This document shows, in pieces, positions 90 through 14,416 of a DNA stretch of 23,982 bases. The translations under genes and the position numbers were made by a program. The notes beneath the pieces are model-generated. The model searched no databases and was not told the DNA's origin. It saw nothing but the letters and a program-made list of their open reading frames with translations. Source of the DNA: a virus. The first letter of the stretch is position 1; the number at the start of each line of letters is the position of its first letter. Where the stretch lies: positions 1-23,982 of IMG/VR virus record IMGVR_UViG_3300027816_000400. The stretch is one strand, 5' to 3'.

Positions 90-3000
90 ATGCAGACAGT
101 TTCACCGACACTATATCAGATCCTTCGTGCATCAGATCGAGACTTGGCCCCGGTCGACCTCTTCGAGTTTTATCCGCCATCAGTAACCGATCTGATTCCC
201 GCTAATGCTGAGCGTCGCTTTGCGTCAACTGGATTGGTCTGGTACGGCTGGGAGTATGAGCAGCAGGCCATCAGCCGGAGCGACATTAGTCGATACATGG
301 GCGAGAAATTTAACTCGGTCAATATCACTCTAAGCAACGTCGACAGGACTGTCAGCGATTGGCTGAACATGATCACGCTCGAGGGTTATCGAGTATTGGT
401 GCGCACGGTCAGCCGCAGATATTCGACTGATTCGGTGGTGCTGTTTGTTGGACGATGTGAGAAGCCGGGTGACGTCGATAACGCGGCTATCACGATCACG
501 GCCAAGCAGGATCTGGGCACGATTGAAAATGAGATCCCGTTCAGCAAGTTTGACCTTAAGTGTCCACTCAAGTTCAAAGGCGCGGAATGCTTGGCCGGAC
601 AGACGTTGGCTCAGAAGGGCCAGACATACAATCAGGCGGCAACGTGTAACAAGAGCTTTTCGCAGTGCGTCGAGTACGGCAACGAGCAGGCGTTTCAAGG
701 CTTTCGTTATCGCGCAGTCATTGGTTCGTTTCGCGTCAATTCACGATCAACGGGCATTGGGGCAGTCTTTGGATCACGTCGAGCAACCAAGCAGTGGACA
801 TCAACGGATAATGTCCCGATCGGTCAAAGCGTACCCTTAGGACTTGGGCGCACTCAGATTGATTTGACCCCAGTGCTCTATGCCGATACGGGTGAATATT
901 TGTACGGGCATTTTGTGGCCGGTGAAGGGCCGATCACGCAATTTGCCGACGTCCGCAATACCACGGCAGGCTGGGCCACGACGTTCCAAACCAAGTATGA
1001 GCATCTGGGCGAATATGGTTACAACGTCGATCAGGCGACAGATAGCCAGTTATTGGGCACAGAGTATTATTCCCATCGCGCTTATGTCGAGGCAACGATT
1101 GAAGGCAATAATCCTGACACGGGCGATCCCGCGCCCACGCTGGCAGGTCTGGTGTTGTGGAATAAAATCCCAACGATAGGCGCAGCTGGGTTTGATGCAG
1201 TCGACTGGTCAGACAATCCCGTGGAGCATGTGCGCTATCTGCTCACAGAAGATCGCGCCCTGAATTACGAGGAGTCATGGATTGATGACATGACCAGCTT
1301 CGAGACCGCAGAGCACTGCAACGAGCCATTGCGCGACGATTCAGGGTGTGAGGAATTTTGGTACGATCAAACGCAAGGTACAGCAGGCACAGACTGGAAG
1401 CGATATCGATCAACGGGCGTGCTTGATTCAGCGTATTACAAGTACGTGCTGAACCCCATTGATGCCAATCGACCACAAAAACTTGGCGCAGATTACAACG
1501 AGTACAATCCAGCAGATCCGCCGCAAAGCATTATTCCCACGACCTTCTACCGCAAACGGTACACCTCAAACTGGCACCTGAAAGAGCCAATCAAAGTATC
1601 GGACTTTCTTTTCAAGCATCTGCTGCCATCCTTCCGAGGATACCTGGTAACGGGCGCAGATGGTCGGTTGCAGATCAAGTCTGAGCGTCCCGCGATCTCA
1701 TCATATCTGCGCAATGCTACCAGTCCAGGCGCGTCAACGATCGCGGTCGAGGACGTGACGGCGTGGCAAAAGCTGCAGCTGAATCAGCTTTACGTGCTTG
1801 TGGGTGCTGGTCAGGATACCAGCGAGACGCACAGCGTGGAAGCTATCGCGTTTTCGTCGGCGGGCAATGCTCTCACGCTGACCGCGACGCAGGGCGCGAC
1901 AGCGTACTCACCGACGTTCGTCGAAGGGTCGGCATCCACGCAAGCCTGGAATTACCTGACGATTGACAGCGCAGAGAATGGGACGGCAATCATTGTCACG
2001 GTGGATGGCGTGACGATCACGGCGGGCGGATATGATGCCACTGGCAACCCCTCGAGCAACGGCGCGGCAGCAGGAGAGTTGACGGCAAGGATCAATGCCA
2101 ACGCCACGCTCAATCGATACATTGAGGCGATCTGGTCGAAGAGCAATCCCACCATCGTCATGCTGCGCTCCAAGCTGGGCGTGCTGACCCTTGGTCAGGC
2201 TCTCACGTACTCGCACGGGACGACAGAGCAGGCTGTGCACGTGCACGGGGTGTTTGCGGATCAGGCATTCGGCGTTCTTGCACAAAGCAACATCATCAAG
2301 GACTCGTTTAAATGGCCGCTGGGAAGCCGCCAGTCCAGCTACAATCAATTTTCCATCACCTACACGGACTCGACCCAAGACTTCCAGCAGACCGAGCTAC
2401 GCGAAAACGATTACGATCACCAGGATCGCGTCAACAAGGTCAACAAGCTGGAGATCAGCGGGGCTTGTGTCGACAACTATCACCAGGCCGATCGGCTGGT
2501 GCAGGCGGCGCGGTACAAATACCGTGATGGTGATTTCTTTTGCAGCTTCCAGGCCACCGGTGATGCTCTTCTCCTTGAAGAGGGCGATATCATTTGCGTT
2601 CAACACGACAACATGGTCGGCAAGCGGAATCAGCTGTTCCGGATCGAAGAGCTGAAAGTCAGCCAAGACCACCGCGTCAATATCGTTGCTCGACTGTACG
2701 CGGAGCAGCAGTTTCCCAGCGCGGCGACCGTGCGCACGGTGGGACTCAATACGGGCACAGTGTGGATTGCTGGCACTCCACCGGCTGTGACAGGGGCTAC
2801 AATCACGGCCACCACGATCGACAGCGGACGAATCAATTTCAACTTTGGTGATTTTGTGGGCGGCCAGACGGCAAGGATTGAGATCAAGCGGCCCGGTGAT
2901 GCTGACTGGTTGCCAGTCATCGACGTTGTGCCCGATGGCCTCGGTCGAGGTGCGGCAGAGATCCCAGCCCTTCGACTGAACACCCAGATCCGGATCACGC

Positions 3001-9847: not shown

Positions 9848-10226
9848 CACTTTTGCCCGTATGGTCTTTCTTCGGCGATGCGTGAAGCGTGATTGACGTA
9901 GCAGGGAGCGCATCAATGCAGAGGGGGGCTCTGCACAACTCCAGCGATCCTGGGACGGGCAAACGAGACACCGACGGCGACGGGCTGCCCGCCTCGTCTA
10001 GCCAGCCTAACGGCGGCGCATCGTCGGAATCCTCGGTCGAGTGAGCGGCCGAGAGGGGGAGGGTAATACCTACACCTCCCCCGCTTACCAAGATCTGTGG
10101 GCAGCCGTCGGAGCAGCGGTTCTGGGGTGCAGCTGGTGGCTTTTGCTACACGGGGGCTGCACCTCGCCCACGCCAGTTCCCTGACAAGCGTCAGGGCGTT
10201 ACATGGGAAATAAAGGTGTGTCTACC
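9848..10226 (+). other. Hairpin-rich region without a clear gene
   Basis: About 380 bases after the HTH gene with several perfect inverted repeats: TGCAGAG/CTCTGCA (9917-9935), CTCGG/CCGAG (10032-10053), GGGGGAGG/CCTCCCCC (10055-10082), GGTGCAGC/GCTGCACC (10126-10163) and CCCTGAC/GTCAGGG (10179-10196). It ends in the terminator at 10227. The density suggests a structured transcript: either a long untranslated end of the HTH message or an independent non-coding RNA. No known RNA family was recognised, and no good promoter was found inside. Confidence 0.45.
9916..10044 (+). CDS. Possible 42-aa disordered small protein
   Basis: An ATG with GGGAG eight bases ahead opens a frame encoding MQRGALHNSSDPGTGKRDTD and a Gly/Ser-rich, probably disordered remainder. 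The same frame continues past the TGA at 10042-10044 for another 70 codons, to 10257. It overlaps the hairpin-rich region, so the frame may be a by-product of RNA structure or a decayed gene. Low confidence. Confidence 0.25.
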   Translation: MQRGALHNSSDPGTGKRDTDGDGLPASSSQPNGGASSESSVE

Positions 10227-10255
10227 GGGAGGCTCTGCAGCCTCCCACTTTTTTT
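10227..10255 (+). terminator. Factor-independent terminator
   Basis: GGGAGGCT, loop CTGC, AGCCTCCC, then AC and seven T. A strong rightward terminator that would end transcripts from the HTH gene. The T-run abuts GAGGT, the ribosome site of the next small gene. Confidence 0.85.
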
Positions 10256-10265
10256 GAGGTGTGCA

Positions 10266-10409
10266 ATGGTGTTTGTGCTGTGGATACTGCTGGAAATCAA
10301 CCGGATCTCTGCGCGGCCTGTCCTGGCTGAGATTGATGGGCGGCCAACGCGGATCGAGCTGGAGCAGTCTGACGAACGACCGACGCGATATATTCGGCCT
10401 CGTCGATAG
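10266..10409 (+). CDS. Possible 47-aa protein with hydrophobic N-terminus
   Basis: Encodes MVFVLWILLEINRISARPVL, then AEIDGRPTRIELEQSDE and an Arg-rich end. GAGGT at 10256-10260 is five bases before the ATG. The first ten residues are hydrophobic but too short for a clear membrane helix. It lies between a terminator and the next promoter, so its expression would require read-through. A real but conditional gene is plausible; no family was recognised. Confidence 0.4.
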   Translation: MVFVLWILLEINRISARPVLAEIDGRPTRIELEQSDERPTRYIRPRR

Positions 10410-10416
10410 TTTCCCG

Positions 10417-10444
10417 TTGACAAATAGCAAGAGATAGCGATAAT
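10417..10444 (+). promoter_or_regulatory. Strong rightward promoter before the structured RNA
   Basis: TTGACA (10417-10422), a 16-base spacer, then GATAAT (10439-10444): a near-consensus sigma70 site. Predicted start is near 10451, the first base of the first RNA hairpin. Confidence 0.7.
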
Positions 10445-10450
10445 AGAATC

Positions 10451-10602
10451 TGGCCGCTGGGGTGACGCCCAGCATCGGAGGCCAAATGGGAAGGGACGAC
10501 AATTCGAATCTGAAAGCCTTTTGCGAAGGCGGGTCAGGTCGATGGCCGTCAACCATCTACCCTTTCCAACCTGCCCGTTCTTCGCAAAGGGCTTTTTGTT
10601 TT
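10451..10602 (+). ncRNA. Structured leader or small RNA with terminal long hairpin
   Basis: About 150 nt transcribed from the promoter at 10417-10444. Stem 1: TGGCC (10451-10455) with GGCCA (10480-10484), enclosing GCTGGG/CCCAGC (10456-10473). Stem 2: two 27-base arms at 10513-10539 and 10569-10595 share 16 consecutive pairs (one G-U) and then CGGG and CAGGT pairs around small bulges; the loop holds GATGG/CCATC. The right arm runs into TTTTTGTTTT (10592-10601), so it has the form of a factor-independent terminator. The ribosome site GGAG (10603-10606) of the next gene follows at once. It could be a free-standing small RNA, an attenuator for the replication operon, or an RNA antiterminator of the HK022 put type. 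No known family was recognised. Confidence 0.6.
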
Positions 10603-10611
10603 GGAGATGAC

Positions 10612-10965
10612 ATGCAAGCAAGAGATTTACAACCATTGATGATCGCCAGTCCAATTGTGCCGCTGGTTGGAGAAGACCTGAATCTAGGATATTTAATTAG
10701 TCAGCTGATCTGGGCTATCAGGGAATCGACACAAGAGCTCGTAAACGACAATAACAAGTGGCGCACTTTTGATATTCAGGATTTTGCCAAGAATATTGGA
10801 ATGTCTGAGGAATGGATTATCTCACAGGCCGTTTCGATCATCTATTCCAACTCTGATTATTTGCGCGATCAGACATTTTTCCGATATGACTCGACGATGG
10901 GCATAATAGGCCTAAATCTTCAGCTATTGACAGATGCGATCAACGAAATGCGGGAGGGTGTATGA
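10612..10965 (+). CDS. Hypothetical protein at the head of the replication operon
   Basis: A 117-residue acidic, helical protein (NLGYLISQLIWAIRESTQEL, DIQDFAKNIGMSEEWIISQA). The segment DFAKNIGMSEEWIISQAVSI could be a helix-turn-helix. The ATG at 10612 follows GGAG by five bases; the longer frame starting at 10462 lies across the structured RNA and is rejected. It overlaps the initiator start as ATGA, so the two are coupled. No family was recognised; a replication or regulatory role is inferred from position. Confidence 0.7.
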   Translation: MQARDLQPLMIASPIVPLVGEDLNLGYLISQLIWAIRESTQELVNDNNKWRTFDIQDFAKNIGMSEEWIISQAVSIIYSNSDYLRDQTFFRYDSTMGIIGLNLQLLTDAINEMREGV

Positions 10966-11849
10966 GCCGCTTAATAAAAGCGACGGATCAGCGAGAGTCA
11001 CCAATTGTCTACTTTGATATTGAGTTGGACGATATTGGCCTGACTGTGTACGAGTATCGCGCCTATGGCCGGATTGCTCGACGGGCATCAGGCGGCAAGC
11101 GATCTTGCACTGAGTCGCTTGATTCGATGGCTTTGGGTTGTCAGATGTCGCGTCGAAGTCTGATCAATGCAATTAAGGGCTTGATCGATCGGCGGATGAT
11201 CGCGCGTGAATCAAAACTTGGTGATACCTCAACTTATTACCTGACCGACAAGTCGAGCTGGATACCTGGTGCATCAGGTGCCCACCTTACCCAAGCACCA
11301 CGTGCCCAGGGGGTGGTGCACCACGTGCCCACCCCTGGTGCGTCACGTGCCCAGGGGGTGGTGCACCACGTGCCCACAAAGAATACAAATAAGAATACAC
11401 AGAAGAAAACAAGAGAAGAGAGTGGGGTGATCTCGCCAGCGGCGAGCATAGCCAGACCGCACACACCACAGATTGAGGATGCTGTCTCTATTGCTCTTGA
11501 ATACTTTCCTCAGATGGGGATCTGGCAACAGGAGCTGATTGCAAATGCAGATATCAATCATCTGGCGCTTTGGCGGCAAACCATGCAGATATGGAGCGAT
11601 CACAAGTGGAGCAAGGGCAACATCCACGGAATGATTGACAAGTACCACCATCTCGAAAATCAGGAAATCAAGCACAAGGAGTACCGCAACAATGGACAGA
11701 ATCGACCAGTACGCGAAAGCCACAATGAGCGAGCAATCAGAGAGACCGTCGAATACATCGAGCGTCTCACCGGAACGACAGTCCGCGATAGCGACGCTCA
11801 TTCAACAGACACGCTCTTTAAGCTCCCTGCCGCTTTCGGTGGGGAATGA
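10962..11849 (+). CDS. Replication initiator-like protein (lambda O-type organisation)
   Basis: A 295-residue protein. The N-terminal 100 residues are a winged-helix/HTH_36-like domain of the type seen in phage replication organisers: LTVYEYRAYGRIARRASGGK, then SLDSMALGCQMSRRSLINAI and KGLIDRRMIARE. The middle (about 105-150) is a repeat-bearing linker with RAQGVVHHVPT twice, encoded by the iterons, followed by KNTNKNTQKKTREES. The C-terminal part (about 165-270) is helical with IWSDHKWSKGNIHGMIDKYH. As in lambda O, the origin appears to lie inside the gene and a P-like gene follows, overlapping it by 158 bases. The ribosome site GGGAGG precedes the ATG. Confidence 0.75.
   Translation: MSRLIKATDQRESPIVYFDIELDDIGLTVYEYRAYGRIARRASGGKRSCTESLDSMALGCQMSRRSLINAIKGLIDRRMIARESKLGDTSTYYLTDKSSWIPGASGAHLTQAPRAQGVVHHVPTPGASRAQGVVHHVPTKNTNKNTQKKTREESGVISPAASIARPHTPQIEDAVSIALEYFPQMGIWQQELIANADINHLALWRQTMQIWSDHKWSKGNIHGMIDKYHHLENQEIKHKEYRNNGQNRPVRESHNERAIRETVEYIERLTGTTVRDSDAHSTDTLFKLPAAFGGE
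11265..11420. other. Predicted replication origin: five iterons and A-rich tract
   Basis: The 9-mer ACGTGCCCA occurs at 11300, 11323, 11345 and 11368, with AGGTGCCCA at 11276; spacings are 24, 23, 22 and 23 bases, about two helical turns. Two perfect 34-bp direct repeats (11299-11332, 11344-11377) each contain the palindrome GTGGTGCACCAC. An A-rich, purine-rich stretch follows at 11377-11420, suitable for strand opening. The order of iterons then easily melted DNA inside the initiator gene matches lambda ori. Confidence 0.7.
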
Positions 11850-13254: not shown

Positions 13255-13562
13255 AATCAACAAAGGAACTGTTAAGCCAAGCACGTATAGAGCACATGGA
13301 ATGTGAAGACAAATGGTATTCATGCCCAGAAGCAGCAGGGGGTTGTTGGAACGATACTCTAGAGCTGCGTTGTAACTGCGGCTCAGACAACACAAATGAA
13401 TGCTTGGAGCTAATTGGCGATCAGATTGATATAGTGACGGCATTTTTGCAAAACTTATTAACCGATGTGACACCGCGTATGGCAGACGATGTGGCCGATC
13501 GGTATGATCGTCGAATTAACGAGCTAATCAGAATGCTGACTGATAATGAGGAGGCCGCATGA
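13251..13562 (+). CDS. Hypothetical Cys-rich 103-aa protein
   Basis: Starts at an ATG overlapping the nuclease stop (ATGA) after GGAGG. The middle contains CEDKWYSCPEAAGGC and LRCNCGSDNTNEC, seven cysteines that could form a zinc site, followed by helices (LIGDQIDIVTAFLQNLLTDV, ELIRMLTDNEE). No family was recognised. It is the coupled neighbour of the DHFR gene. Confidence 0.65.
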   Translation: MKSTKELLSQARIEHMECEDKWYSCPEAAGGCWNDTLELRCNCGSDNTNECLELIGDQIDIVTAFLQNLLTDVTPRMADDVADRYDRRINELIRMLTDNEEAA

Positions 13563-14416
13563 TTATCTCCATTATTGCAGCTCTCGACGAGCGCGGCACA
13601 ATCGGCCAGGACAATCGCATACCGTGGCGGCAGGCGGCAGACCTGAAGCGGTTTCGGCATCTCACCAGCGGCCATTATGTGGTCATGGGGCGACGTACCT
13701 ATGAGAGCCTGCCGCAGCCGCGAGTGCTTCCGGAGCGGAAAATGATTGTCCTCTCCACGACCGATGAGTTTGCTCGCACTCTGCCAAATCACGTGATTCA
13801 CCAGCGGTCAATCTTCTCCGCGATGGAGTATGCCGAGAAGGCCGGGGAGACGGAGCTTTTCTTGATCGGCGGCTGGGAGGTGTACATGATGGGCCTGCTG
13901 TTTGCGGATCGGATGTATCTAACCAGAGTCCGCGCCAGCACCAAGGGAAAAGTCACCAAATTCCCCGAAATTGCGCGGAGAGAGTGGGAGCTGCGCCAAT
14001 CGGCTGGACCATATCCGGCCGACGCGCACAACCAGCACTCATATACGTTCGAGCTGCACGAACGGCTTACTGAGGACGTATTGACGGCGCGGCGACGCGA
14101 AAAGCGGCTACGGCAATACGAAGCGCATCGGATCAGGACCATGACTGATGTGGTTTGCGAGGGCTGCGGGGTGCAATTCCGGCGGGCACTGGCCGACGTC
14201 AACTCGAGCATCAAAAATGGCCGGCAGATTTTTTGCTCTAACAGCTGCGCGGCCAAAACTCGCAATGCCTTAATTAGTCAACTGACAACTATTTCTTGCA
14301 CGTGTGAGAAATGCGGAGTACAGTTCACTCGGCCAGCCAGCTTGAGCAAAAATAAACACCACTATTGCTCAAAAGCATGCTATCGAGCTGATTTGAAGCG
14401 GGTCAGAAATCTCTAG
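13559..14416 (+). CDS. Dihydrofolate reductase with C-terminal zinc-finger extension
   Basis: A 285-residue protein. Residues 1-170 are DHFR, which reduces dihydrofolate with NADPH for thymidylate synthesis: MIISIIAALDERGTIGQDN, IPWRQAADLKRF with the active-site Asp at 28, VVMGRRTYESL, and LFLIGGWEVYM are all present. A linker (about 171-195) leads to two cysteine clusters of treble-clef type, CEGCGVQF...FCSNSC and CEKCGVQF...YCSKAC. Ordinary DHFR is about 160 residues, so the extension is unusual. The frame is continuous and both fingers look intact. ATGA coupling to the upstream gene. The finger type is often found on phage nucleases and DNA-binding proteins. Confidence 0.9.
   Translation: MIISIIAALDERGTIGQDNRIPWRQAADLKRFRHLTSGHYVVMGRRTYESLPQPRVLPERKMIVLSTTDEFARTLPNHVIHQRSIFSAMEYAEKAGETELFLIGGWEVYMMGLLFADRMYLTRVRASTKGKVTKFPEIARREWELRQSAGPYPADAHNQHSYTFELHERLTEDVLTARRREKRLRQYEAHRIRTMTDVVCEGCGVQFRRALADVNSSIKNGRQIFCSNSCAAKTRNALISQLTTISCTCEKCGVQFTRPASLSKNKHHYCSKACYRADLKRVRNL

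Follow-up and report, generated by a model that had tools for sequence, protein, structure and literature searches.

A structured leader RNA of ~150 nt stands ahead of the replication genes in a 23,982-base virus record (hereafter the window, meaning the whole stretch analyzed, which is probably a fragment), and we consider, with a probability of about 0.6, that it is a conditional intrinsic terminator (attenuator) of the phage replication operon. The RNA forms a discrete, previously unlisted family that is absent from Rfam, and covariation among its copies demonstrates an RNA structure. In a group of uncultured phages, it occupies the point where DNA replication is decided upon. All coordinates refer to the plus strand of the window unless stated otherwise.

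Homologous copies of the leader RNA

Using loci of neighboring proteins, a pattern search and a covariance model (R1), we collected 15 distinct homologous copies from 14 related environmental phages in viral contigs. They share one layout, score 108–157 bits and all belong to one group of related phages. Relatives of the replication protein and of RecT in viral contigs served as loci for blastn, which located the RNA in the close relatives at ~69–81% identity. The nine contigs reached through neighboring proteins carry no pattern bias; the pattern itself fixed part of the upper stem of the long hairpin P3 (see below).

The sequence-only reading of this DNA had recognized no known family, in agreement with Rfam 15, where no match in the window reached the gathering score and the best sub-threshold one was a microRNA model (19.4 bits for a cut-off of 90). 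GenBank phages and PLSDB contained no homologue, only chance matches of ~23–32 nt, and a literature search found no description of this RNA. R1 was also negative against 199 genomes of one phylum, a result of little weight, as that phylum may not be the host's. We discarded as chance the hits L104, L106 and L107 and 18 pattern matches in bacterial genome contigs, all without P1, terminator and U-tract, while the minus-strand matches of R1 were the palindromic stem read backwards. A coding role was likewise rejected, the frame of the first gene being open across the RNA only in the window and a few relatives.

Promoter and 5′ stem

The near-consensus promoter proposed from the sequence is TTGACA-16-GATAAT at 10417–10444, with 11 of 12 consensus matches. 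TTGACA is perfect in most copies, and the remaining ones rely on a strong or extended −10 box. Because this box ends 6 nt ahead of the first stem, P1, transcription should start at ~10451, on the base of a two-part stem as had been suggested. The distance is 5–7 nt in 15/15 copies, which, together with the covariation, upholds the idea of a structured RNA with its own promoter.

P1 (10451–10484) is built of an outer (10451–10455/10480–10484) and an inner (10456–10460/10469–10473) 5-bp stem. In A3, a hand-built helix alignment of 47 pairs and 15 copies, 8 of its 10 pairs are compensatory and 97.1% of the cells are paired. Its loop reads GGUGACGC in the window and includes GUGACG (10462–10467), which is invariant and present in every copy.

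Terminator hairpin and pseudoknot

The long hairpin P3 spans 10515–10593. Its 5′ arm (10515–10538) forms 23 pairs with the 3′ arm (10570–10593), an apical hairpin (10541–10557) provides a 5-bp tip in which 5/5 pairs are compensatory, and the stretch that directly follows is the U-tract TTTTTGTTTT, so that the second hairpin of about 25 pairs with a T-tract described from the sequence was indeed recovered. The 3′ arm and the U-tract make up an intrinsic terminator (10570–10602), recognized by its sequence and its pairing in A3 and intact in 15/15 copies; both predicted ends of the RNA, at the start of P1 and at the terminator, are thereby closed in stems. The P3 stem is paired in 100% of the cells, with 4 of 23 pairs changed on both sides, the others nearly invariant and two universal G-U pairs kept. 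A simple terminator scan of the window, which accepts only loops of 3–8 nt, did not list this hairpin.

A further helix connects the 5′ domain with the long hairpin. S1 (10487–10495, UGGGAAGGG) pairs with S2 (10560–10568, CCCUUUCCA), which lies inside P3, forming a pseudoknot that would also serve as the closing helix before the terminator folds; an unconserved linker of 11–20 nt (10496–10514 in the window) follows S1. The S1:S2 helix measures 7–12 bp and forms in 15/15 copies with at least five unrelated sequence versions, S1 being, among others, UGGGAAGGG, GAUAAGCGC, GGUAAACG, GGGAAACUGG or GAAAGGGA, each with its own matching partner. One phage type (G006, G011, G012 and L105) carries two copies of the RNA ~2.5 kb apart whose S1:S2 sequences differ. 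Seven of the nine columns are compensatory in A3, where the helix alone has a covariation score of 0.681 vs 0.233 in a hand-chosen register; on A2, an alignment built without knowledge of S1:S2, the score is 0.533 vs 0.205 for shuffled and at most 0.17 for slid sequences. The sequence-only reading had overlooked this helix, as well as the complementarity of the two loops and the conservation in 14 other copies.

The apical loop of P3, CGUCA (10547–10551), could pair with UGACG in the loop of P1, its complement, making a candidate kissing interaction. [C/U]GUCA occurs in 15/15 copies, and five loop-loop pairs are possible in all of them. Because both loops hardly vary, this contact is a suggestion and not a covariation result, and the invariance could equally stem from a protein. 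The architecture, for which covariation support is strong, is unusual in that the 5′ domain of the RNA forms a pseudoknot, and perhaps a kissing contact as well, with the upper part of its terminator hairpin.

Folding energy and covariation both point to a maintained structure. The segment 10451–10606 folds at −69.6 kcal/mol vs −52.6 ± 4.3 for shuffled sequences (z −3.9). For A3 as a whole, 98.6% of the cells are paired vs 82.2% in shuffled alignments, 24 pairs are changed on both sides vs 16.0, and the covariation score is 0.473 vs 0.152 shuffled and 0.06–0.11 with slid partners; the shuffles overstate significance because the sequences are related, while the slid control and the variety of S1:S2 versions are less open to this objection. 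Both stems drawn in the sequence-only reading thus covary among the relatives.

These data bear on the simplest explanation, an ordinary operon-boundary terminator combined with a structured, mRNA-stabilizing 5′ leader whose folding has no regulatory role. The largely invariant terminator stem would fit it, but the concerted changes in 7/9 S1:S2 columns and 5/5 apical pairs are needless for a plain terminator, and promoter and terminator lie within the same 190 nt, which makes this explanation improbable.

A predicted alternative fold of the terminator base

For nascent RNAs cut just before the 3′ arm, the predicted fold of 15/15 copies has a closed S1:S2 helix that encloses the apical hairpin. 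The same predictions contained, in 13/15 copies, a hairpin (GCCUUNNGNGAAGGC) with the 5′ base of the terminator inside it. In the window, this local hairpin (GCCUUUUGCGAAGGC, 10516–10530, stem GCCUU/AAGGC) overlaps the terminator base, and the two would be mutually exclusive. As its stem is nearly invariant, covariation speaks neither for nor against it. Once the terminator is complete, these nucleotides are instead paired to the 3′ arm, some of them as G-U (A3 columns 42, 51 and 52), and these G-U pairs, kept in all or most copies, are exactly the positions that are Watson-Crick paired in the local hairpin. Such conservation would be expected if the 5′ arm served both folds.

Position in front of the replication genes

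The ribosome-binding site GGAG (10603–10606) for the ATG at 10612 comes straight after the T-tract, as had been noted, and directly follows the U-tract in 13/15 copies. The start codon usually lies 10–16 nt past the RNA (59 nt in two copies). No promoter-like site was found inside the RNA or between the terminator and the ribosome-binding site. Since the latter abuts the U-tract and no such site intervenes, transcription apparently has to pass the terminator to reach the replication genes. An intrinsic terminator lies between the promoter and the first gene in 15/15 copies, and its place between the sole visible promoter and the ribosome-binding site, within a conserved fold that may take two forms, would correspond to the anatomy of an attenuator.

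The sequence-only reading had left the choice between an attenuator and a small RNA. The latter would be an independent, abundant and stable phage RNA of ~150 nt with a target in trans, either of the host or of a phage, and the operon would live on leaky read-through. Both predicted ends lie in stems, the promoter is strong, the terminator is intact in 15/15 copies, and the prophage RNA IsrK offers a precedent for a dual small RNA/mRNA role (PMC4825925). Against this, the abutting ribosome-binding site leaves no room for another promoter, and the only conserved single-stranded seeds are the two loops, which are complementary to each other. The attenuator is therefore favored, and we regard the independent small RNA as possible but rather unlikely.

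In the window, the first gene of the replication operon (10612–10965) encodes 117 aa of unassigned family, with no Pfam or PHROG match and no relative in viral contigs by a pattern-based scan; only in G002 does a homologue (37.6%) stand immediately downstream of the RNA. It is followed by a replication initiation (O-like) protein (10962–11849; PHROG 270/678, E 1e-7 to 2e-6). Across the copies, the first genes belong to at least five unrelated families: the 117-aa protein, O-like replication proteins, a helicase with a methyltransferase behind it, an MT-A70 methyltransferase and a 123-aa protein of unknown function. RNA version and first gene combine freely, the RNA type following neither the upstream nor the downstream genes. 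The window and G001 share ~90% identity as far as the −35 box, diverge across the RNA and first gene(s) and match once more from ~11700, indicating that the RNA is exchanged together with the first genes, as a single cassette. Kept before unrelated first genes, the RNA looks like a portable control element. At a second site of G008, before replication genes (L108 2830–3040), only the 3′ tail of the RNA is present, behind a different hairpin of 13–14 bp.

A model for conditional termination

We propose that transcription starts at the base of P1, which would fold as the RNA emerges. S2 is released from the polymerase ahead of the 3′ arm, and S1:S2 should therefore be the first to form, as soon as S2 has exited, while the small hairpin would hide the 5′ base of the terminator in a read-through conformation. 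The emerging 3′ arm could then displace the small hairpin, close the 23-bp stem and cause termination at the U-tract, releasing an RNA of ~150 nt. The balance, and thereby the expression of the replication genes, would depend on what strengthens or disrupts the S1:S2 and kissing-loop fold, probably a factor recognizing the invariant nucleotides, that is, the GUGACG and YGUCA loops and the GGCGGG-U-CAGG stem. S1:S2 and the terminator share no nucleotides and therefore need not exclude each other; by a crude length estimate, only 4/15 copies have a linker that could not accommodate the two at full length. S1:S2 may thus either delay or help the terminator. The full-length energy favors the terminator, so that read-through may simply be leakage. 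This attenuation model bears on how phages may gate replication without a dedicated antitermination protein, and the small size of the RNA makes it directly amenable to in vitro transcription.

The S1:S2 versions might also represent specificity types of an RNA immunity, in which the short terminated RNA from a resident phage would base-pair in trans with the leader being made by an incoming phage of the same type, forcing termination. Pairing in trans would then block the incoming S1:S2 helix, termination would precede the replication genes, and recombination would exchange types in the manner of immunity cassettes, as is seen between the window and G001. We hold this to be very unlikely.

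Comparison with known systems

As far as the account in PMC4825925 goes, phage P4 holds back its replication genes by premature termination in a leader with complementary stretches, a likeness to the attenuator proposed here, and the P4 CI RNA is a processed antisense RNA that pairs with seqA and seqC. Unlike in P4, the two complementary strands here belong to a single leader that also carries an intrinsic terminator, and there is no Rfam match. A P4-type antisense immunity RNA, which has separate complementary targets on either side of a processed RNA, was rejected: S1 and S2 pair with each other, and no other exact match to either strand, as a trans partner would provide, exists in the window.

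The HK022 put RNA binds the zinc-binding domain of the RNA polymerase β′ subunit. Put is a promoter-proximal RNA that acts on termination (PMC9378689), and like the leader studied here it is a structured cis RNA that immediately follows an early phage promoter, precedes early genes and is tied to termination control. A put-like element here would bind its own polymerase and make it resistant to this and later terminators. The comparison with put-type antiterminators called for by the sequence-only reading favors this only for placement, the RNA being promoter-proximal at the head of an early/replication operon, as with HK022 putL (PMC9378689), and P1 beginning at the predicted +1. Size and fold disagree, since put has ~70 nt and two stem-loops without a terminator, while the leader has ~150 nt, a pseudoknot and a built-in terminator. 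Nor did R1 give a convincing hit in HK022 (the best scored 7.9 bits, E 2.2), and the window has no second copy, hence none at its leftward promoter. We consider a put-like action quite doubtful.

In the HMP-PP (thiS) riboswitch, a pseudoknotted aptamer is embedded in a terminator (PMC6478431). Like the leader, it has an unusually conserved terminator hairpin with a pseudoknot, and its alternative fold, which opens the stem base, resembles the one predicted here (PMC6478431). It differs in being much smaller, of other sequence and linked to metabolic genes, while the leader fronts phage replication genes. The IsrK transcripts of prophage Gifsy-1 partly read through their terminator into the downstream mRNA, giving a short terminated RNA and a read-through mRNA from one phage promoter (PMC4825925), similar to what is proposed here; IsrK, however, acts in trans on translation, and no structure in common with the leader is apparent. 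By analogy, the leader would work most like the P4, put and HMP-PP systems and appears to be a member of none, because no sequence match was found and the size and fold of put differ.

Type III toxin-antitoxin RNAs consist of pseudoknot repeats in tandem, with a toxin gene downstream. This type was rejected for the leader, which forms a single unit per site, with first genes for replication, a helicase, a methyltransferase or an unknown product, and no Pfam or PADLOC match to a toxin among the first genes scanned.

Neighboring features

Just upstream, ~400 largely noncoding bases (9848–10265) contain several hairpins and a terminator-like site at 10227–10246; they are 76–90% identical in G001, G005 and G009, have no Rfam match and constitute a second RNA candidate. 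A 47-aa ORF (10266–10409) with an arginine-rich tail (RPTRYIRPRR) ends just before the promoter, is conserved in G001, G005, G006 and G009 and is a candidate RNA-binding partner.

An extra copy of the promoter and P1 is found in G007 (L009 1714–1857, minus strand), followed by a tRNA-like gene (Rfam tRNA, 37 bits) and then the full RNA; a similar stretch precedes the RNA in G008 and G015. L052 carries a second copy of the RNA without a promoter (2808–2959, minus strand), which at P1 runs into the reading frame of a methyltransferase; this junction may result from recombination or misassembly. Further downstream in the window, 13559–14416 encodes a dihydrofolate reductase followed in frame by an HNH-endonuclease-like C-terminal part.
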